Source: Pseudomonadota bacterium (GTDB lineage Bacteria > Pseudomonadota > Gammaproteobacteria > Steroidobacterales > MnTg04). From it: DNA of 64,000 bases. The position numbers and the translations under genes are program-made. The stretch covers positions 1 to 64,000 of the forward strand of contig JACZVC010000014.1 of the NCBI GenBank assembly GCA_022572885.1. The letters run 5' to 3'. Of the stretch, positions 17,451 to 60,800 are shown one piece after another. The notes below the pieces were generated by a model. It was not told the origin of the DNA, did not search any database, and saw nothing but the letters and a program-made list of their open reading frames with translations. Positions within the stretch are counted from its first letter, which is position 1. Each line of letters starts with the position of its first letter.

Positions 17451-17624
17451 CATTAATAGTGTGTGGCGTTTCTTTATCAACCACCAGGTGTTCGTCAAGG
17501 AGTCGTCTAGCGAGGCGATACGGATCGAGCGCCGTCTGCCGGCAACCCTTTAAGCCGAGGGTTTTAAAGCGTGCGGCGTTCGATTGACATAAGACGAAAG
17601 CCTGTGCACGGTGCACGGTACTGA

Positions 17625-17709
17625 TAAAGGCAAACTCGCCGAAAGGTGAGGACGCAAAGCACCCGGTCTAAGGGAATTCCTATGATGGCGGGGCTGCCAG
17701 TTTTTTTTT
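17625..17709 (+). promoter_or_regulatory. c-di-GMP-I (GEMM) riboswitch with T9 tract
   Basis: The aptamer shows the GEMM-I landmarks in order: GGCAAAC; a hairpin CTCGCC-GAAA-GGTGAG with its tetraloop; the invariant GGACGCAAAGC; CCGGTCTAAGG; and the closing GGCGGGGCTGCC, which pairs back to the opening GGCA. Nine T residues (17701-17709) follow two bases later. A competing helix can form between GGCTGC (17692-17697) and GCAGCC (17710-17715), which would destroy the closing P1 stem. The expression platform is therefore probably transcriptional. It precedes the operon starting at 17855. Confidence 0.9.
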
Positions 17710-17854
17710 GCAGCCGTTCGACCTTCTTTGCGAAACCCCCAACCGGTCTGTTCTTGGCCTGAGTTCACTACCCATGCCAATGGGAGTGGTGAGCCTGGCG
17801 CCGGGTTCTTTTGCTTTGTTGCCTCCGGGTTACATCGACGGGACGGGTACGGAT

Positions 17855-20722
17855 ATGGACAAAGTAAACAGGCAAAAGTCAGCCGGAGTTTTGATTCTTG
17901 CGGCGGTCGCTTTATTGCTCAGCAGCTGTGGCGATAGCACCAGGGAAGAGGTTGTCGTCGAAGGCGCCCTGGCGATCGTTTTCGTGCAACGCGGCGTCGG
18001 CGCGGTCGGCAACCCGACCGATGGCATTATTTTTCAGGCCGGCGGCGATTTGATGAGCATGGACCTTTCCTCGCCGAGCGCGACGATGACCAATCTGACT
18101 GAGGCATACACGCTGGGCGCCGGCGATGTCTCGGACCCGGAAGTGTCTTTCGATGGCGAGCGCGTGCTGTTCTCCATGCGCGGGCCCAATGACCCGACCT
18201 GGAGTATTTTCGAATACGAAATGGCTACCGCTGCGCTGACCCGTATCGTCAGCGACGATCTTGTCGCCAACGACGGTGACGATGTCGACCCGGCTTATCT
18301 GCCTGACGGTCGAATCGTGTTCAGTTCCAATCGCCAGGAAAAATCGCGCCAGATCCTGACTGCCGAGAATACCGAGCAATACGCGTTTCTCGACGAGTAC
18401 GAACGCGAACGCTCGATCGTCCTGCACGTCATGAATGGCGATGGCAGCGATATTCACCAGATTTCATTTAACCAGAGCCACGACCGCAACCCGACGGTCC
18501 TGGTCACTGGAGAAATCATGTTCTCGCGCTGGGATCATGTCGGTAATCGCAACCATTTCCCGATTTTCTTCACCAACCCCGATGGCACCAACATTTTTAT
18601 CCAGTACGGTGCATTCAGTCCCGGAAACAGCATGCTGCACCCGCGTGAAATGCCTGACGGGCGGGTCATGACTTCGCTGATGCCGCTGTCCGGGACCTTT
18701 GAAGGCGGCGCCGTTGTCGCCGTCGATATCCGTAATTTTTCCGAGTTCAACGAGCCTGCGCCTGGGGCGCCCGCCGGCGCAGTCGGCCAAGTTGAAGTAA
18801 CGCCATTGCCGATCGAATTTGGCGATGACGTATCCGAAAACGGACGCTTCACGACGCCGTTTCCGCTTTGGGACGGCACCAACCGTGCGCTGGTTAGCTG
18901 GTCGCCGTTGCGCCCCGAAATGGAGACCGATCCCTTTTCCGGTGTGGAAATTGAGGTTGAAGGCGATCCGCTTTACGGCATTTACATGCTGGACATGGAC
19001 ACCAATTCGATGCGTCCGATCGCCTTGCCGCCCGACGGCGTGGCCTATACCGACGCGATTCCATTGCAGCCACGCGCCGCGCCAAACACGATTGCCGACA
19101 AACCGCTGGATGCCGCCCTGGCAGCCCAGGGCATGGGCATCATCAACGTCAAGAGCGTTTATGACACCGATGGCCAGGACCTGATGGGCGCGAGCATGCT
19201 GATTGCTGGCGAAACTATCCCGATGATAGCGGCGCCGCCCGGGGATTCACGTTCCATGGTTGCGGACCTGGCAACCATCAAGGACCCGCTGCTGACCACG
19301 GCCGCCGGCCGGGTCGGCCGTTTTATACGGATTACCCGCGCCGTGTCCACGCCGCGCGGTATATCGATGGATGCCATTGGCGAGACCGACATGGAGATGC
19401 AACGCATCGTTGGTTACGGGGTTGAGGAGCCCGATGGCTCGTTCCGCTTCAAGGTACCGGCTGACATTGCCCTGGGCGTTGCAGTCGTGGATTCCAATGG
19501 CCGCGCGTTTCAGACACATACCAACTGGCTGCAGGTTCGCCCCGGCGAAACCCGCACCTGCAATGGCTGCCACTCCCCGCGCCGTGGCGGCGCGATCAAT
19601 TCCGCACCGATCGCCGGCGACCATCCCAATACCTTGCTGGCAGCGCAATCCGGCGAATCGATGGCCGAAACCCGTACCCGCCTGGATCCGCAGGTAATGG
19701 ACCTGATCGCCGATATGGTTTTCCAGGATGTCTGGACCGACCCGGCGATCCGGACGCCGGATCCGGACCTGGTGCTGAATTACGCTGGGCTTACCACGCC
19801 GGCCCCGGTGAGCGGACTGATCAATTATCCGGACCATATTGCCCCGTTGTGGACCAAAGACCGCGGTGCCGATACTTGTACCGCCTGTCACAACAGCAAC
19901 CTGGTGGGCGACCCGGTATCGGTCGGCCTGGATCTTCGCAGCCTCTCGGCAGGCAATGGCCGTTTGTTGTCCTACGAGGAACTGCTGATTGGCGATCCGG
20001 TCATCGATCCGGCTACCGGTCTACCGGTCCTGCGGGTCAGAGATGGCGAGATTGAAGTCGTGCGCCAGGCACCGCTGGTAGCGACCGGATCCCCTCGCCA
20101 GAGTTCGCGGACCAGCCACCTGGTAGAAAAAATCTATGAACAGGAGCTGCGCGCAGGCAAGGACCTGGTGGCGACGACTGTTGACCACAGCGGCATGATG
20201 AATGCGTCCGAACGGCGCCTGATGGCCGAGTGGATAGATGTTGGTGCGCAGTATTACAACAACCCATTCGACGATGCGAATGGAGACGGTTTTAACAGTC
20301 TCAGCGAGGTTCGTGGCGGAGTGCGGGGTCTTAGCGAAAGCGAGTTCAACGCACAGGTCCACCCGATCCTGATGGCGCATTGTGCCGCTTGCCACCAGCC
20401 GTTCACCGGCAATGGCACGCCATCCGACCCGCAAAATCCCGGGTTTATCCCCAATCGCTTCGTGCTGACCGGCAGCCAGGAAGGCGATTTCAACATTACC
20501 GTCAGCATGGTCGAAAACGTTTGCATGCCGGAACAAAGCAGCTTGCTCAAACGACCGGTCAGCGACGAGCTTGCCAATCCGCCGCATCCGCGCATCGACG
20601 ATCCAAATGTTGTCGACGATCCTGCTGATCCGCTCGCTGACGATATCACGGTGTTGAACATTGCCGACCCCGATTATCAGACCATTTTCAACTGGGTTTC
20701 GGGTGGCGTTTGTATTCCATGA
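17855..20722 (+). CDS. HzsA-like three-heme c-type cytochrome lipoprotein
   Basis: The 955 residues start with a lipoprotein signal (LLLSSC at the lipobox). A TolB-like beta-propeller region follows (DPEVSFDGERVLFSMRG, DPAYLPDGRIVFSSNR), then a region like the middle domain of hydrazine synthase alpha subunit. Three heme c motifs are present: CNGCH at 569, CTACH at 675 and CAACH at 843. These HzsA-related proteins are widespread and usually not hydrazine synthases, and the partner subunits HzsB/C are absent here. It is predicted to be periplasmic and lipid-anchored, doing electron transfer or oxidation. It is first in the riboswitch-controlled operon. Confidence 0.85.
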   Translation: MDKVNRQKSAGVLILAAVALLLSSCGDSTREEVVVEGALAIVFVQRGVGAVGNPTDGIIFQAGGDLMSMDLSSPSATMTNLTEAYTLGAGDVSDPEVSFDGERVLFSMRGPNDPTWSIFEYEMATAALTRIVSDDLVANDGDDVDPAYLPDGRIVFSSNRQEKSRQILTAENTEQYAFLDEYERERSIVLHVMNGDGSDIHQISFNQSHDRNPTVLVTGEIMFSRWDHVGNRNHFPIFFTNPDGTNIFIQYGAFSPGNSMLHPREMPDGRVMTSLMPLSGTFEGGAVVAVDIRNFSEFNEPAPGAPAGAVGQVEVTPLPIEFGDDVSENGRFTTPFPLWDGTNRALVSWSPLRPEMETDPFSGVEIEVEGDPLYGIYMLDMDTNSMRPIALPPDGVAYTDAIPLQPRAAPNTIADKPLDAALAAQGMGIINVKSVYDTDGQDLMGASMLIAGETIPMIAAPPGDSRSMVADLATIKDPLLTTAAGRVGRFIRITRAVSTPRGISMDAIGETDMEMQRIVGYGVEEPDGSFRFKVPADIALGVAVVDSNGRAFQTHTNWLQVRPGETRTCNGCHSPRRGGAINSAPIAGDHPNTLLAAQSGESMAETRTRLDPQVMDLIADMVFQDVWTDPAIRTPDPDLVLNYAGLTTPAPVSGLINYPDHIAPLWTKDRGADTCTACHNSNLVGDPVSVGLDLRSLSAGNGRLLSYEELLIGDPVIDPATGLPVLRVRDGEIEVVRQAPLVATGSPRQSSRTSHLVEKIYEQELRAGKDLVATTVDHSGMMNASERRLMAEWIDVGAQYYNNPFDDANGDGFNSLSEVRGGVRGLSESEFNAQVHPILMAHCAACHQPFTGNGTPSDPQNPGFIPNRFVLTGSQEGDFNITVSMVENVCMPEQSSLLKRPVSDELANPPHPRIDDPNVVDDPADPLADDITVLNIADPDYQTIFNWVSGGVCIP

Positions 20723-53598: not shown

Positions 53599-53835
53599 AT
53601 GAACGAAACCGCCCAAAAAAGAGCCACCGTTTACTTCGACCCGTTACTACATCGCGCGCTGCGTCTAAAAGCGGCTGCAACCGATCGCAGTATTTCCGAA
53701 CTTGTCAACGAGGCCGTCAAAGCCGCCCTTGCGGAAGACGCCAGCGACATTGAGGCCTTCGAAGTTCGGGAAAAAGAACCAGACTATGCGTTTGAGGACG
53801 TCGTTAAGGACTTGAAACGACGTGGCAAAATATAG
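53599..53835 (+). CDS. Ribbon-helix-helix antitoxin (ParD/CopG-like)
   Basis: The N-terminal RATVYFDPLLHRALRLKAAATDRSISELVNEAVK is a ribbon-helix-helix DNA-binding domain. The acidic C-terminal tail (EAFEVREKEPDYAFEDVVKDL) would wrap the toxin. At 78 residues it is typical in size. It overlaps the toxin gene by 14 bases and should repress the palindromic promoter directly upstream. Confidence 0.92.
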   Translation: MNETAQKRATVYFDPLLHRALRLKAAATDRSISELVNEAVKAALAEDASDIEAFEVREKEPDYAFEDVVKDLKRRGKI

Positions 53836-54088
53836 TCTGCGGATTAAGAAATCGGCCCGTAAAGAACTTGAATTGATCGCCACGAAGGCGGATCGGCGGC
53901 GCGTTATCAGGCGTATAAAATCACTCGCTGATAATCCAAGACCTCCTGGTGCATTGAAGTTGTCAGGCCTCGAGCGTTATCGAATCCGCCAGGGTCGCTA
54001 TCGCATTCTCTACACCATCGAGGATGCGGTATTGATCGTCCACCTAATCAAAATCGGCGATCGCAAGGATGTCTACCGAAGCAAGTAG
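53822..54088 (+). CDS. RelE/ParE-family toxin
   Basis: The 88 residues show the RelE/ParE fold: YSLRIKKSARKELELI, RRVIRRIKSLADNPRPPGALKLSG, YRIRQGRYRILYTIEDAVLIVHLIKIGDRKDVYR. The GLERYRIRQGRYRILY core and the final IGDRKDVYR are diagnostic. The family includes ribosome-dependent mRNA interferases (RelE) and gyrase poisons (ParE). The basic/Tyr C-terminus is closer to RelE. It is translationally coupled to the antitoxin. Confidence 0.92.
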   Translation: MAKYSLRIKKSARKELELIATKADRRRVIRRIKSLADNPRPPGALKLSGLERYRIRQGRYRILYTIEDAVLIVHLIKIGDRKDVYRSK

Positions 54089-56330: not shown

Positions 56331-56795
56331 ATGAAAATTTCGAGTTTCTTTTTTGGCGTGATTATGGCTACGCTCGTTTTGATCGGTGCGCCAGCGTTCG
56401 CCGAACAAACAGCCGACGATCCAGTGGTCGATACGGGCCCAACCTTGTATGAGCGCTTGGGTGGTGGCGAGGGCGTACAGAAAATCATTAGCGATGCGAT
56501 CTCGTTACATCTGGAGAACCCGACAATCAAGCACCGGATGGAAGGCGTTGACTTGAAATACCTGGTGGCCTCCGTATCGGCATTTTTTTCCGCGGGTACC
56601 GGCGGACCAAACAACTATACGGGCCCGGACATGGCCACTGCGCATGCCGGCATGATGTTGAGCCACGAAGAATTTGACGCGGCCGTGTCAGACGTGCTGG
56701 CTGCAGTAATGGCTAACGTCGACGATGGACAGGCCGAGCGTGACGAGGTGCAGGCAATTTTGCTGTCGCTTCGTGACCAGGTGGTGGGCAAGTAA
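56331..56795 (+). CDS. Exported group 1 truncated hemoglobin
   Basis: A signal peptide (FFFGVIMATLVLIGAPAFAEQ) is followed by a group 1 trHb domain: TLYERLGGGEGVQKIISD, FFSAGTGGPNNYTGPDMATAHAGM (proximal His in TAHAGM) and LSHEEFDAAVSDVLAAV. These bind heme and handle oxygen or NO. Most are cytoplasmic, and this one is predicted periplasmic. GGGGGG and AGCAGGA precede the ATG. Confidence 0.88.
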   Translation: MKISSFFFGVIMATLVLIGAPAFAEQTADDPVVDTGPTLYERLGGGEGVQKIISDAISLHLENPTIKHRMEGVDLKYLVASVSAFFSAGTGGPNNYTGPDMATAHAGMMLSHEEFDAAVSDVLAAVMANVDDGQAERDEVQAILLSLRDQVVGK

Positions 56796-56929
56796 GATCA
56801 GCCTGTCACAATGGATTCGATGTCGATAGCAGGGAGTATCGCCATCAAATGCTGTTTCCGTCCAAGGTGATATTGGCCTGGAAAAAATTGGGGTCAGGAA
56901 AACTGCTGGCCACCAAAGATCCAGGCAAT

Positions 56930-56963
56930 AAAAAAGGGGATGAAGTACGAATACCTCATCCCC
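56930..56963 (-). terminator. Intrinsic terminator of the candidate RNA
   Basis: On the minus strand GGGGATGAGG and the near complement of GGGGATGAAG (56936-56963) form a long stem, followed by six T residues (56930-56935). It defines both the strand and the 3' end of the RNA. Confidence 0.88.
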
Positions 56964-57345
56964 CGTTCAGTTTTCTCTTTCCAGTTCATCCGCGAGGTGA
57001 ATCGCTTCTGTCCCGGTCGGTTCCAACTCGGCCCCTGACTTAGCCACCGACGTAGTCCATGACTTAGCCCGATACCGGCTCGGGAACCTCAGTCCCCTGG
57101 AATTTCTTTTTGGACGCTTAGCTACGTCCCCCGCCAAAGCATTCCGGTAACGCTTTCACGAGCCCTGGCAGCTTCCCTCTACATCGCAGCCCGATTATTC
57201 ATCCGACTACTCTGCCGCGCATATTGCCCTTTCGGGCCCTACCCACGTGTAGACTTCGTCTACCGGTTGGTCACTCCTGGCGTGTGACCCTGCCCCAGCC
57301 AATTGGAGCCCGGCTTCCTTCCAACCGAGGTTTTCCAGTTGCCGT
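56930..57345 (-). ncRNA. Candidate structured non-coding RNA, about 415 nt
   Basis: The segment has no credible gene. It is flanked by a good minus-strand promoter (57352-57379) and a perfect intrinsic terminator (56930-56963). Compact hairpins are frequent: GGTCAC...GTGACC (57269-57289), GTAGAC-GAA-GTCTAC (57249-57263), GCCC-GAAA-GGGC (57226-57237), AAGCGTT...AATGCTT, GGACG...CGTCC and GGGGAC-TGAG-GTTCCC. The decamer GGCTAAGTCA occurs twice. I tested by eye for RNase P RNA, tmRNA, SRP, 6S and group I/II intron cores and saw none. The role is unknown. Confidence 0.6.
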
Positions 57346-57351
57346 GGATTT

Positions 57352-57379
57352 AATATATCACTAAAAATAATCCTGCCAA
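57352..57379 (-). promoter_or_regulatory. Promoter of the candidate RNA
   Basis: On the minus strand TTGGCA (57374-57379) and TATATT (57352-57357) are separated by 16 bases. A start near 57345 is expected. The surrounding DNA is AT-rich. Confidence 0.6.
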
Positions 57380-57877
57380 TAGCAAAACTTGTGGGAAGTT
57401 TGTGGATAAGCGGTGCATATCAGAAAAAGAATGATTCGGGGACTTTTTTCTTCGTTTTCATTCGTTTTCGATGGAGAAAAGCACACTTCCTACCCTTTTT
57501 TGAGAAAAATTTAGATGCGATTTATCAAAGAGTTGCTGCAATGTGTTGAGGTTTGAATTGAAGAAAATGCAAAAAAATATCACTCGTGTCGCGCGCAAAA
57601 AATTCTCATTTCCAAGTCTGATCGCCACCATAATGCATTGATTTTAAAAGAGTAAAAAAGAGTATTCTTATGGTGGTGCGGATGTTCGATAGATAAAACG
57701 AATACTTTCTGTAGCCAGGCACCTCCGTTGCTGTCTGGACTCATTCTCAAGTTATTATTGAACGACGGTCGCATCAAATCCGCGTTGCTCGCGACCTGTT
57801 GCGCTGTCATTGGCGGCTTTCGCTTGATAGCCTCGGATTCGGCGACCATATATTAGATTTTGGTCCTAAAAACGCGC
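57380..57877. other. AT-rich intergenic region without recognisable gene
   Basis: About 500 bases between the RNA promoter and the MalT-like gene hold several A/T runs and no coding-like frame. A minus-strand frame at 57580-57849 has no signal of being real. The region probably contains regulatory sites for the two divergent units, but no clear operator was found. Confidence 0.6.
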
Positions 57878-60800
57878 ATGCAACATTCGTCCGTCAGGTT
57901 TGCAAAAATCAGCCGCCCGCGTCTGCCGGAGGTCGCGCCCCGTCCCCGTCTGTTTACGCTGCTGGATGAAGGCAGGCAGAGATCGATAATCTGGGTATGT
58001 GGTTCGCCCGGGTCGGGCAAGACCACGCTGGTCGCCGATTATCTCGATACCTGGGCAGTGGATGATGTCTGGTACCAGGCCGATGAAAGCGACGGCGATG
58101 TCGCCACCTTTTTTTATTACCTGTCCCGGGCGGTCACCGAATCGGACGATGGCGATGCCAAACCTCTGCCGGCTTTTTCTCCCCAGTACCTGAGCGATCT
58201 CCCGGCATTCTCTCACGGTTATTTCCGCGAGCTTTTCGCCCGCCTGGCGCAGCCTTTTGCGGTGGTTATCGATAATTTCCAGGATGTACCCGACAAGTCC
58301 CAATTTCATGATGTGATTCGTAATGGCCTGGCCGAGATACCGCAGGATTGTTGCGTGGTGATCATCAGTCGGGATGAGCCGCCGGCCTGGACGGCGAGAT
58401 TCCGAGCAAACCAGCGCATGCTTGCGCTGGGCCAGTCAGACATGACTCTCACACGAGAAGAATCCGATGCCATCATCCGGGTTCGCGGGCAAGAGTTTGA
58501 CGACGAGGCCTGCGAGCGATTGTTCCAGCGAACTCGCGGGTGGGTCGCAGGCCTGGTCCTGATGCTCGAGCAGCGGCAGGGAAACGGACCGATAAAAGAC
58601 GTTCCGGAAGATTCTACCCCACAGGTGATTTTCGATTACCTGGCGGGCGAGGTCATCAAGCGGATGAACGATCATGACCAGGAATTAATATTGCAAACCT
58701 GTCTGCTGCCGCAACTTACCGCCGAGCAGGCCGATAAGCTGACCGGCCACAGCGACTCAGCGAATATCCTCAGTTTTCTCGCGAAAAACGATATTTTTGT
58801 CACTTCCAGGCAGGGTCTGGACGAAATTATCTATGAATATCATCCCTTGCTGCGCGAGTTTCTGTTGGCAAGGGTCAAGGAAAAGCTGGGCACGAAGGAG
58901 TACGCAGAACTACAGGAACGCGCGGCGAGCCTGCTCGAGCAGGCAGGACTAATAGAGGACGCGATCAATCTGCGTATCGAAAACCGGCAGTGGGACGAGC
59001 TGGCCAAGCTGATCGGGCAACACGCAGCGAGGGTACTGGAGCATGGGCGCGACGAGACCTTGCAGGAATGGCTGGAGAAATTGCCCGCGGAATTTGTGGA
59101 AAACGATCCGTGGATGTCGTACTGGATGGGCGCCTGTCGTTCGGCATACGCGCCGGTGGAAAGCCAGCTTTTTTGCGAGCGCGCCTATGCGATGTTCCGC
59201 GAGCAGGAACAGATCGACCGGGATGGGCTTTTCATGGCCTGTGGTGGTGTACTGGACGCGATTTTATACGACCTTAACGACCTTGCGCCGCTGGATCACT
59301 GGATCAGCGAGGTTGAACGTCTGCTGGAGGAATACCCGGATTTTCCGGAGCACCCGTATGGCGCCAGGGTGACCTACAACATGTACCTGTCGCTGGTCTA
59401 TCGCCGCCCCGCACACCCGGAAATCAAGCTTTGGGCAGAGCGCACGGTCGGCGTAATCGAAAAAGCGCAAGATTCGGCTACGCGCCTGCGGGCAGTGACA
59501 ATGTTGTGTTCCGGGATCGTTTGGACCGGGCGTTTTGATGTTGTGCGGACGGTTATCGAGTCCATACGGCAGATTGTCGATGCGCCAGATGTCCCGCCGA
59601 TTGCGGTTACTACCTTGCACGCGTTCGAGACCATGTATTACATGCTGTTGGGGAAACATGAAGAATGTCTGAAAGTCGCCGGCCAGGGTCTGAAAGCAGC
59701 GAAAGACAGCGGTATCCACCTGTGGAGGAACACGACGCTGATTTACGGTGCGGCCGGGGCGGTGGGCGCCGGCGACCTGGAAACCGCAGAAAGCATGCTG
59801 ATGCAAATAGACGAGGACGCATTAAAAACCAGGCGCTTTGATTCCAGTCAGTATTATCTTATTCGTGCCTGGATCGCGATGGAAAGGGGCGATTTGCAGG
59901 ATGCTTTCAATCAGCAAAAAATCGCGCTGAGGCTGATTCAGGAACTCGGCCTGCCATTCATCGAAGCCGTCATCATGACGGGTATGGCGCAGATCCAGTT
60001 TGAACTCGGCGATACCCGGAAAAGTATCGAGCACATGAAAATGGTCAGCAAAATAACGCGGACCATCGACAACCGGCTTTTCGAATTCCAGAGCCTGTTG
60101 ATGTACGCCTACCTGGCGTTCGAATACGGTCGCAAAACGCGGGGACTGCGCGCCCTGAGTGCGGCGCTAAAAATGGGCCGGGAAAATAATTACTCCTACA
60201 CAATCTGGTGGCAAAAGCAGGTGATGGCCAGGTTGGCCGTTATCGCATTACGCAACGGGATTGAACCCGAATACGTCAAGTGGCTGATCGTAAAACGGCG
60301 GCTGATGCCGGACGAACCGCCACTGGATGTCGAAGATTGGCCGTGGATGTTTCGGGTCACGACGATGGGGAAATTTGAAATTGAATGGGTCGGGCAGGCG
60401 GCCAGGAAAAAGAAAGGCAAGGCGCAGGGGCGGCCGATCGAGTTACTGAAGGCAGTCATTGCTTTTGGCGGCAGGGATGTTCGCGTTCAAAAAATTACCG
60501 ACGCGATGTGGCCGCACATCGATAGCGACTACGCCAACCGCTCTTTCAACACGACACTTCACCGCCTGCGTAATATCCTCGGCGATGAGCAGGCGCTGAT
60601 CCTCGAAGGCGGCCAGCTAAGCCTTAACCCAAGTCTTTTCTGGCTCGATCTCTGGGCGATGGAGCAGGCGCAGAAGCAGGTTAGCGGGTTGATTGGCGGC
60701 GACATCGCCGGAGGCCTGGTTGAAATCAGGGAGATAGTCGCCAAGGTCATGCATATCTACCAGGGTGCGTTCCTTGGTGATGAAGAAGCGTCCTGGGCGC

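Follow-up and report, generated by a model that had tools for sequence, protein, structure and literature searches.

There are few large structured bacterial RNAs without an assigned function, and recent work has shown three of them to be assemblies made of RNA alone (PMC12286853). OLE is a dimer, in which a loop that alternates among GGCC, GAUC, and AGCU marks the place where two copies meet symmetrically; in ROOL, a kissing loop that had been detected by covariation turned out to be intermolecular, joining one copy to another (PMC12286853).

We describe here a stand-alone noncoding RNA gene found in a 64,000-nt stretch of gammaproteobacterial DNA (the window). The gene lies on the minus strand at 57346..56930 (∼417 nt, 5′ end near 57346; coordinates are accurate within a few bases) and was delimited by promoter and terminator scans, homologs, covariation, and a folding z-score. 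Its design is most similar to that of OLE, ROOL, and GOLLD, but it is a member of none of these families, and none of their Rfam covariance models matches it. Like OLE, it is a large structured RNA with a palindromic loop that switches sequence, here from CCGG to CGCG; unlike OLE, it is shorter (OLE has 577 nt), resides in a gammaproteobacterial host, and has no protein gene common to its loci. With ROOL and GOLLD it shares an ornate structure and loop–loop contacts detected through covariation, but it is again shorter, and no phage or prophage genes were recognized alongside it. We place it in a new family of large stand-alone structured bacterial RNAs and grade that claim by its parts: The novelty of the family is well supported, whereas its function is unproven, and both function and oligomerization are inferred. 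The reading we favor, with reasonable though not strong confidence and without transcript data, is a trans-acting structured RNA of ∼400–455 nt, encoded by its own gene and belonging to an uncatalogued family.

Gene boundaries, neighbors, and distribution

An initial annotation had credited the interval with its own promoter, a perfect terminator, and no plausible protein, and all three claims held up. The promoter is of the sigma70 type (TTGGCA-16-TATATT with an extended −10 TG; 57379..57352, minus strand) and was the sole promoter-like site in a scan of positions 56500–57900. Shuffled sequences yield ∼1.3 such sites, so the site by itself is not significant, but the promoter together with its upstream stretch is 94.6% identical in the congener G009. 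The terminator scan placed an intrinsic terminator at 56964..56935 (minus strand), with a 13-bp stem followed by TTTTTT. No reading frame within the RNA is conserved across six lineages. The RNA itself is 98.3% identical in G009, compared with 81% and 66% for the adjacent spacers and 79% and 73% for third codon positions of the flanking genes, which argues that constraint on the RNA is stronger than on its neighborhood.

The RNA is present in at least eight genomes (that of the window and seven others), representing six divergent lineages in four families of the order; the hosts are metagenome-assembled, uncultured gammaproteobacteria. A DNA search of 396 genomes of the order recovered two congeners at 98%–99% identity, G049 at 69%, and patches in G042. 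A first covariance model, built on a 137-nt core from hairpin P3 to hairpin P7, added G016 (76 bits), and searches of the class (369 genomes) and the phylum (379 genomes) returned nothing besides the window's own copy. A second model, which included G016 and was used to search 39 relatives with greater sensitivity, scored G004 (E 0.01) and G019 (E 0.06) weakly, below threshold. We accepted both as homologs on the basis of independent anatomy and not of score: They carry the upstream box, complementary P0 and P1 loops, a P6 with a CCGG loop, P7, the A-rich linker, and P8. In G004 a terminator follows at the right distance, and the G019 copy is interrupted by a contig end. As the first model had overlooked both, a failure to detect the RNA in other genomes does not establish its absence there, and the distribution is underestimated insofar as two homologs lie below threshold and were recognized through their anatomy.

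Several candidates did not survive inspection. An apparent second copy in G049 was an overlap of two contig ends with no duplication, and weak matches in G001 (27 bits), G042 C299, G018, G035, and G053 were dropped as coding-like or unrelated sequence. A pattern scan of genome contigs gave, among the matches listed, mostly chance hits, and the model filter left only members already known; the same scan and filter found no member in viral contigs. BLASTN against phages and plasmids gave no relevant match, and an empty-site comparison found no DNA match for the RNA-flanking genes in G036 or G047.

The genomic surroundings differ from family to family. Pfam identified an amidase, a globin, and a MalT/BTAD-like regulator near the RNA in the window, ShlB and a solute-binding protein in G049, an Asp/Glu racemase and DUF885 in G042, and SPOR and PCMT in G016, while reading of open frames placed an SPFH-type membrane protein near the RNA in G004 and G019. 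No neighbor gene was common to different families, as judged by Pfam in four contexts and by reading of open frames in G004 and G019. With no partner gene shared between families, the RNA is more likely to be trans-acting than to be a leader. Elsewhere in the window, a small gene pair at 53599–54088 (plus strand) has a Pfam match to the ParE toxin in its second frame, and its first frame looks like the partner antitoxin.

Secondary structure and covariation

Of the two strands, the RNA strand alone has an unusually stable fold. Its minimum free energy is −177.7 kcal/mol (z −5.85), and none of 100 shuffles was equally stable. A repeat test with 30 shuffles gave z-scores of −5.7 for the RNA strand, −6.0 with the terminator removed, and −0.45 for the opposite strand; the background over 52 tiles of the window had a mean z of −0.42 (SD 1.24) and a lowest value of −4.67.

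Covariation, which the initial annotation had proposed as a check, proved strong across six divergent lineages. When four core sequences were aligned with plain MAFFT, two-sided changes appeared at 10 pairs, a number reached in 0 of 500 shuffles. The model-aligned set of six sequences had 16 such core pairs (again 0 of 500 shuffles), with 93.6% of cells paired in the core compared with 35%–46% in slid-partner controls. This model-made alignment favors the structure. P0, P1, P6, and P8 covary across the six lineages, although their pair counts come from hand-picked helices and are hence biased toward the structure.

The RNA had been described as holding at least six compact hairpins, one with a GAAA tetraloop, and the inventory below, all on the minus strand, bears this out. 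The 5′-most 35 nt are poorly conserved. P0 (57292..57309, loop UUGGC at 57298–57302) and P1 (57269..57290, GGGUCAC..GUGACC, loop GCCAG) are supported by covariation and have loops complementary to each other. P2 (57249..57263) appears in the centroid fold, with equivalents read by eye in G042 and G016. The covarying P3 (57216..57247) carries the GAAA tetraloop (57227–57236, closing stem covarying) in the window genus, G049, G042, and G016, and lacks it in G004. P4 (57186..57210) has 10 pairs, covaries, and has a conserved loop, whereas the short P5 (57168..57182, GUAG/CUGC) is weak, with 87.5% of cells paired and no two-sided change. The stem of P6 (57130..57162) covaries strongly beneath a palindromic apical loop, CCGG, within 57142–57149. 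P7 (57112..57129, GGACGUAGCUAAGCGUCC) has the highest primary-sequence conservation in the RNA. P8 (57082..57097), 3′ of the A-rich linker, rests on pair counts across the six lineages, in which two-sided change affected all six of the pairs counted and none was broken. P9 (57067..57079, CCG/CGG) and P11 (56992..57005, with a conserved GAUUCA-like loop) were not counted; like P10 they were read by eye only, as was P2 apart from the centroid fold. In the P10 region (57039–57070), GGCUAAGUCA occurs twice in the window copy, a repeat not seen in the other families.

Known RNA families and competing explanations

Scanned over the whole window at the gathering threshold, Rfam 15 returned a c-di-GMP-I riboswitch alone and no family at the RNA locus. 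Subthreshold matches to the window copy were chance-like (E 0.06 and 5.6), and permissive scans of this copy and three homologous loci gave scattered chance-like matches that did not agree with one another. The minus-strand check suggested by the initial annotation therefore found no family, group II introns included, in the window copy or in the homologs from three genomes. Its statement that the interval fits no RNase P RNA, tmRNA, SRP, 6S, or intron also stands: Rfam models gave no match at the locus for RNase P, tmRNA, 6S or SRP RNA, or group I or group II intron cores (e.g., domain V), and ARAGORN found no tmRNA in the window. The absence of an Rfam family and the strong covariation over six divergent lineages together support its central proposal, an undescribed large structured RNA gene. 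Our searches of the literature, which covered only part of it, brought up no account of an RNA like this one. The riboswitch itself (17619–17701, plus strand; 77.4 bits) lies directly upstream of a 1004-aa frame (17708–20722) with CxxCH-type motifs.

The alternative that survives best is a monomeric trans-acting regulator, whose conserved loops (CCGG in P6, YUGG in P0) would sequester a protein or pair with mRNAs. CsrB is ∼360 nt long, and CsrB, CsrC, and RsmZ are likewise gammaproteobacterial RNAs with their own promoter and terminator. Size and transcription signals of our RNA are thus like those of CsrB-like RNAs, and the stand-alone gene without conserved neighbors and the regulator-like box upstream of the promoter also suit a regulator. 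However, a CsrB-type GGA sponge had to be rejected, since five of the six lineages have GGA counts close to or under those expected (e.g., 15 observed vs. 12.8 expected in the window copy and 4 vs. 7.7 in G019), the exception being G049 with 16 vs. 9.6, and most members thus show no enrichment. CsrB/Rsm families give no Rfam match, and structural constraint extends over nearly the whole length, beyond what is usual for base-pairing small RNAs. We consider such a regulator rather unlikely, although it remains a live possibility.

It is improbable that the RNA is a divergent member of a known family for which the Rfam models are too narrow. The family diverges fast, and G004 and G019 escaped the first model we built, but four divergent copies gave no consistent or significant match even at permissive thresholds.

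A large catalytic RNA, either a ribozyme or a processing RNA, is very improbable. The compact multi-helix fold, GNRA tetraloop, and loop–loop contact are features of known ribozymes, but no ribozyme, intron, or RNase P model in Rfam matches, no ribozyme core was recognized in the RNA, and outside the surroundings of P7 it lacks a universally invariant unpaired core like theirs. Type A RNase P RNA is comparable in size, and some look-alike strings occur in the 5′ part of the window copy (GCCGGGCUCC..GGGCAGGG), but these are not conserved in the homologs G049, G042, and G016, and the source genome already has a normal type A RNase P RNA on another contig (C7; 327.5 bits).

The idea that the RNA serves a mobile element or defense system as a guide or accessory (TnpB/IscB omega RNA, retron, or CRISPR-like) can be set aside almost entirely: The RNA's occurrence among sampled genomes is patchy, as this idea would have it, but the patchiness is partly an artifact of search sensitivity, the source genome has a single copy, and the neighbors are unrelated between families, with no transposase and no adjoining nuclease or reverse transcriptase (Pfam in four contexts, reading of open frames in G004 and G019).

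Loop–loop contacts, an upstream box, and a possible oligomer

Covariation shows, at the level of sequence only, that the P0 and P1 hairpin loops pair with each other. The loops are complementary in all six lineages: UUGGC:GCCAG in the window genus and G049, CUGAC:GUCAG in G042, CUGGC:GCCAG in G016, GCUUGG:CCAAGC in G004, and AGCUUGG:CCAGGCU in G019. Two positions of the contact vary on both sides, and the summed complementary length was reached in none of 20,000 joint loop shuffles. The linkers between P0 and P1 are only 1–4 nt long, so pairing within one molecule or between two is possible; covariation cannot separate these, and linkers this short are no less compatible with intermolecular pairing.

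The P6 loop is CCGG in five of the six lineages and CGCG in G016, both palindromes, while its stem varies freely. In G016 the loop is longer, and its CGCG occurs nowhere else in that RNA. All five members with a CCGG loop have CCGG elsewhere in the RNA too, so another partner for the loop is possible there, and the switch between palindromes rests on one lineage. Given this switch and the precedent of OLE and ROOL, homodimerization is a reasonable inference, although unproven.

We therefore propose only tentatively, as a serious possibility short of an even chance, that the RNA acts as a structural scaffold that dimerizes or oligomerizes through its loops on the model of OLE, ROOL, and GOLLD, an inference drawn from sequence signals alone. 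The palindromic P6 loop (CCGG, or CGCG in the one lineage) would pair with its counterpart in a second copy, and P0 and P1 would pair within or between copies.

Upstream of the promoter lies a DnaA-box-like 9-mer (TTATCCACA; 57401..57409, minus strand), ∼55–65 nt from the RNA start and in the same place in all eight genomes. The DnaA box consensus is TTWTNCACA. The 9-mer fits it in six of the eight genomes, where it reads TTWTCCACA (TTATCCACA in the window, both congeners, and G049; TTTTCCACA in G004 and G019); in G042 and G016 it is ATTTCCACA, with A in the first position. Transcription may be coupled to DnaA or to another factor reading TTWTCCACA, in which case the level of the RNA would track growth or the replication cycle. 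With no binding data, we offer this coupling as a conjecture that could well be wrong, and the box could serve a protein other than DnaA. Two loci from different genera with different neighbors (L016 and L017) also have in common ∼31 nt upstream of the RNA (ACAAAATTTCCACAGGCTGTGCACAGCTTGTT), containing a second, palindromic element (TGTGCACA). Caulobacter has a 182-nt cell-cycle RNA at its replication origin, CcnA (PMC8959179); we found no relation between it and the RNA described here.

Taken whole, the proposal of a new gammaproteobacterial ornate RNA whose palindromic and complementary kissing loops join its copies into RNA-only homo-oligomers, under DnaA-controlled transcription, is speculative and unlikely to hold in every part. 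At ∼417 nt, the RNA is small enough for probing and cryo-EM, and its covarying kissing contact and palindromic loop make the question of how common RNA-only assemblies are directly testable. The DnaA-box-like site, if functional, would link the RNA to the replication cycle.
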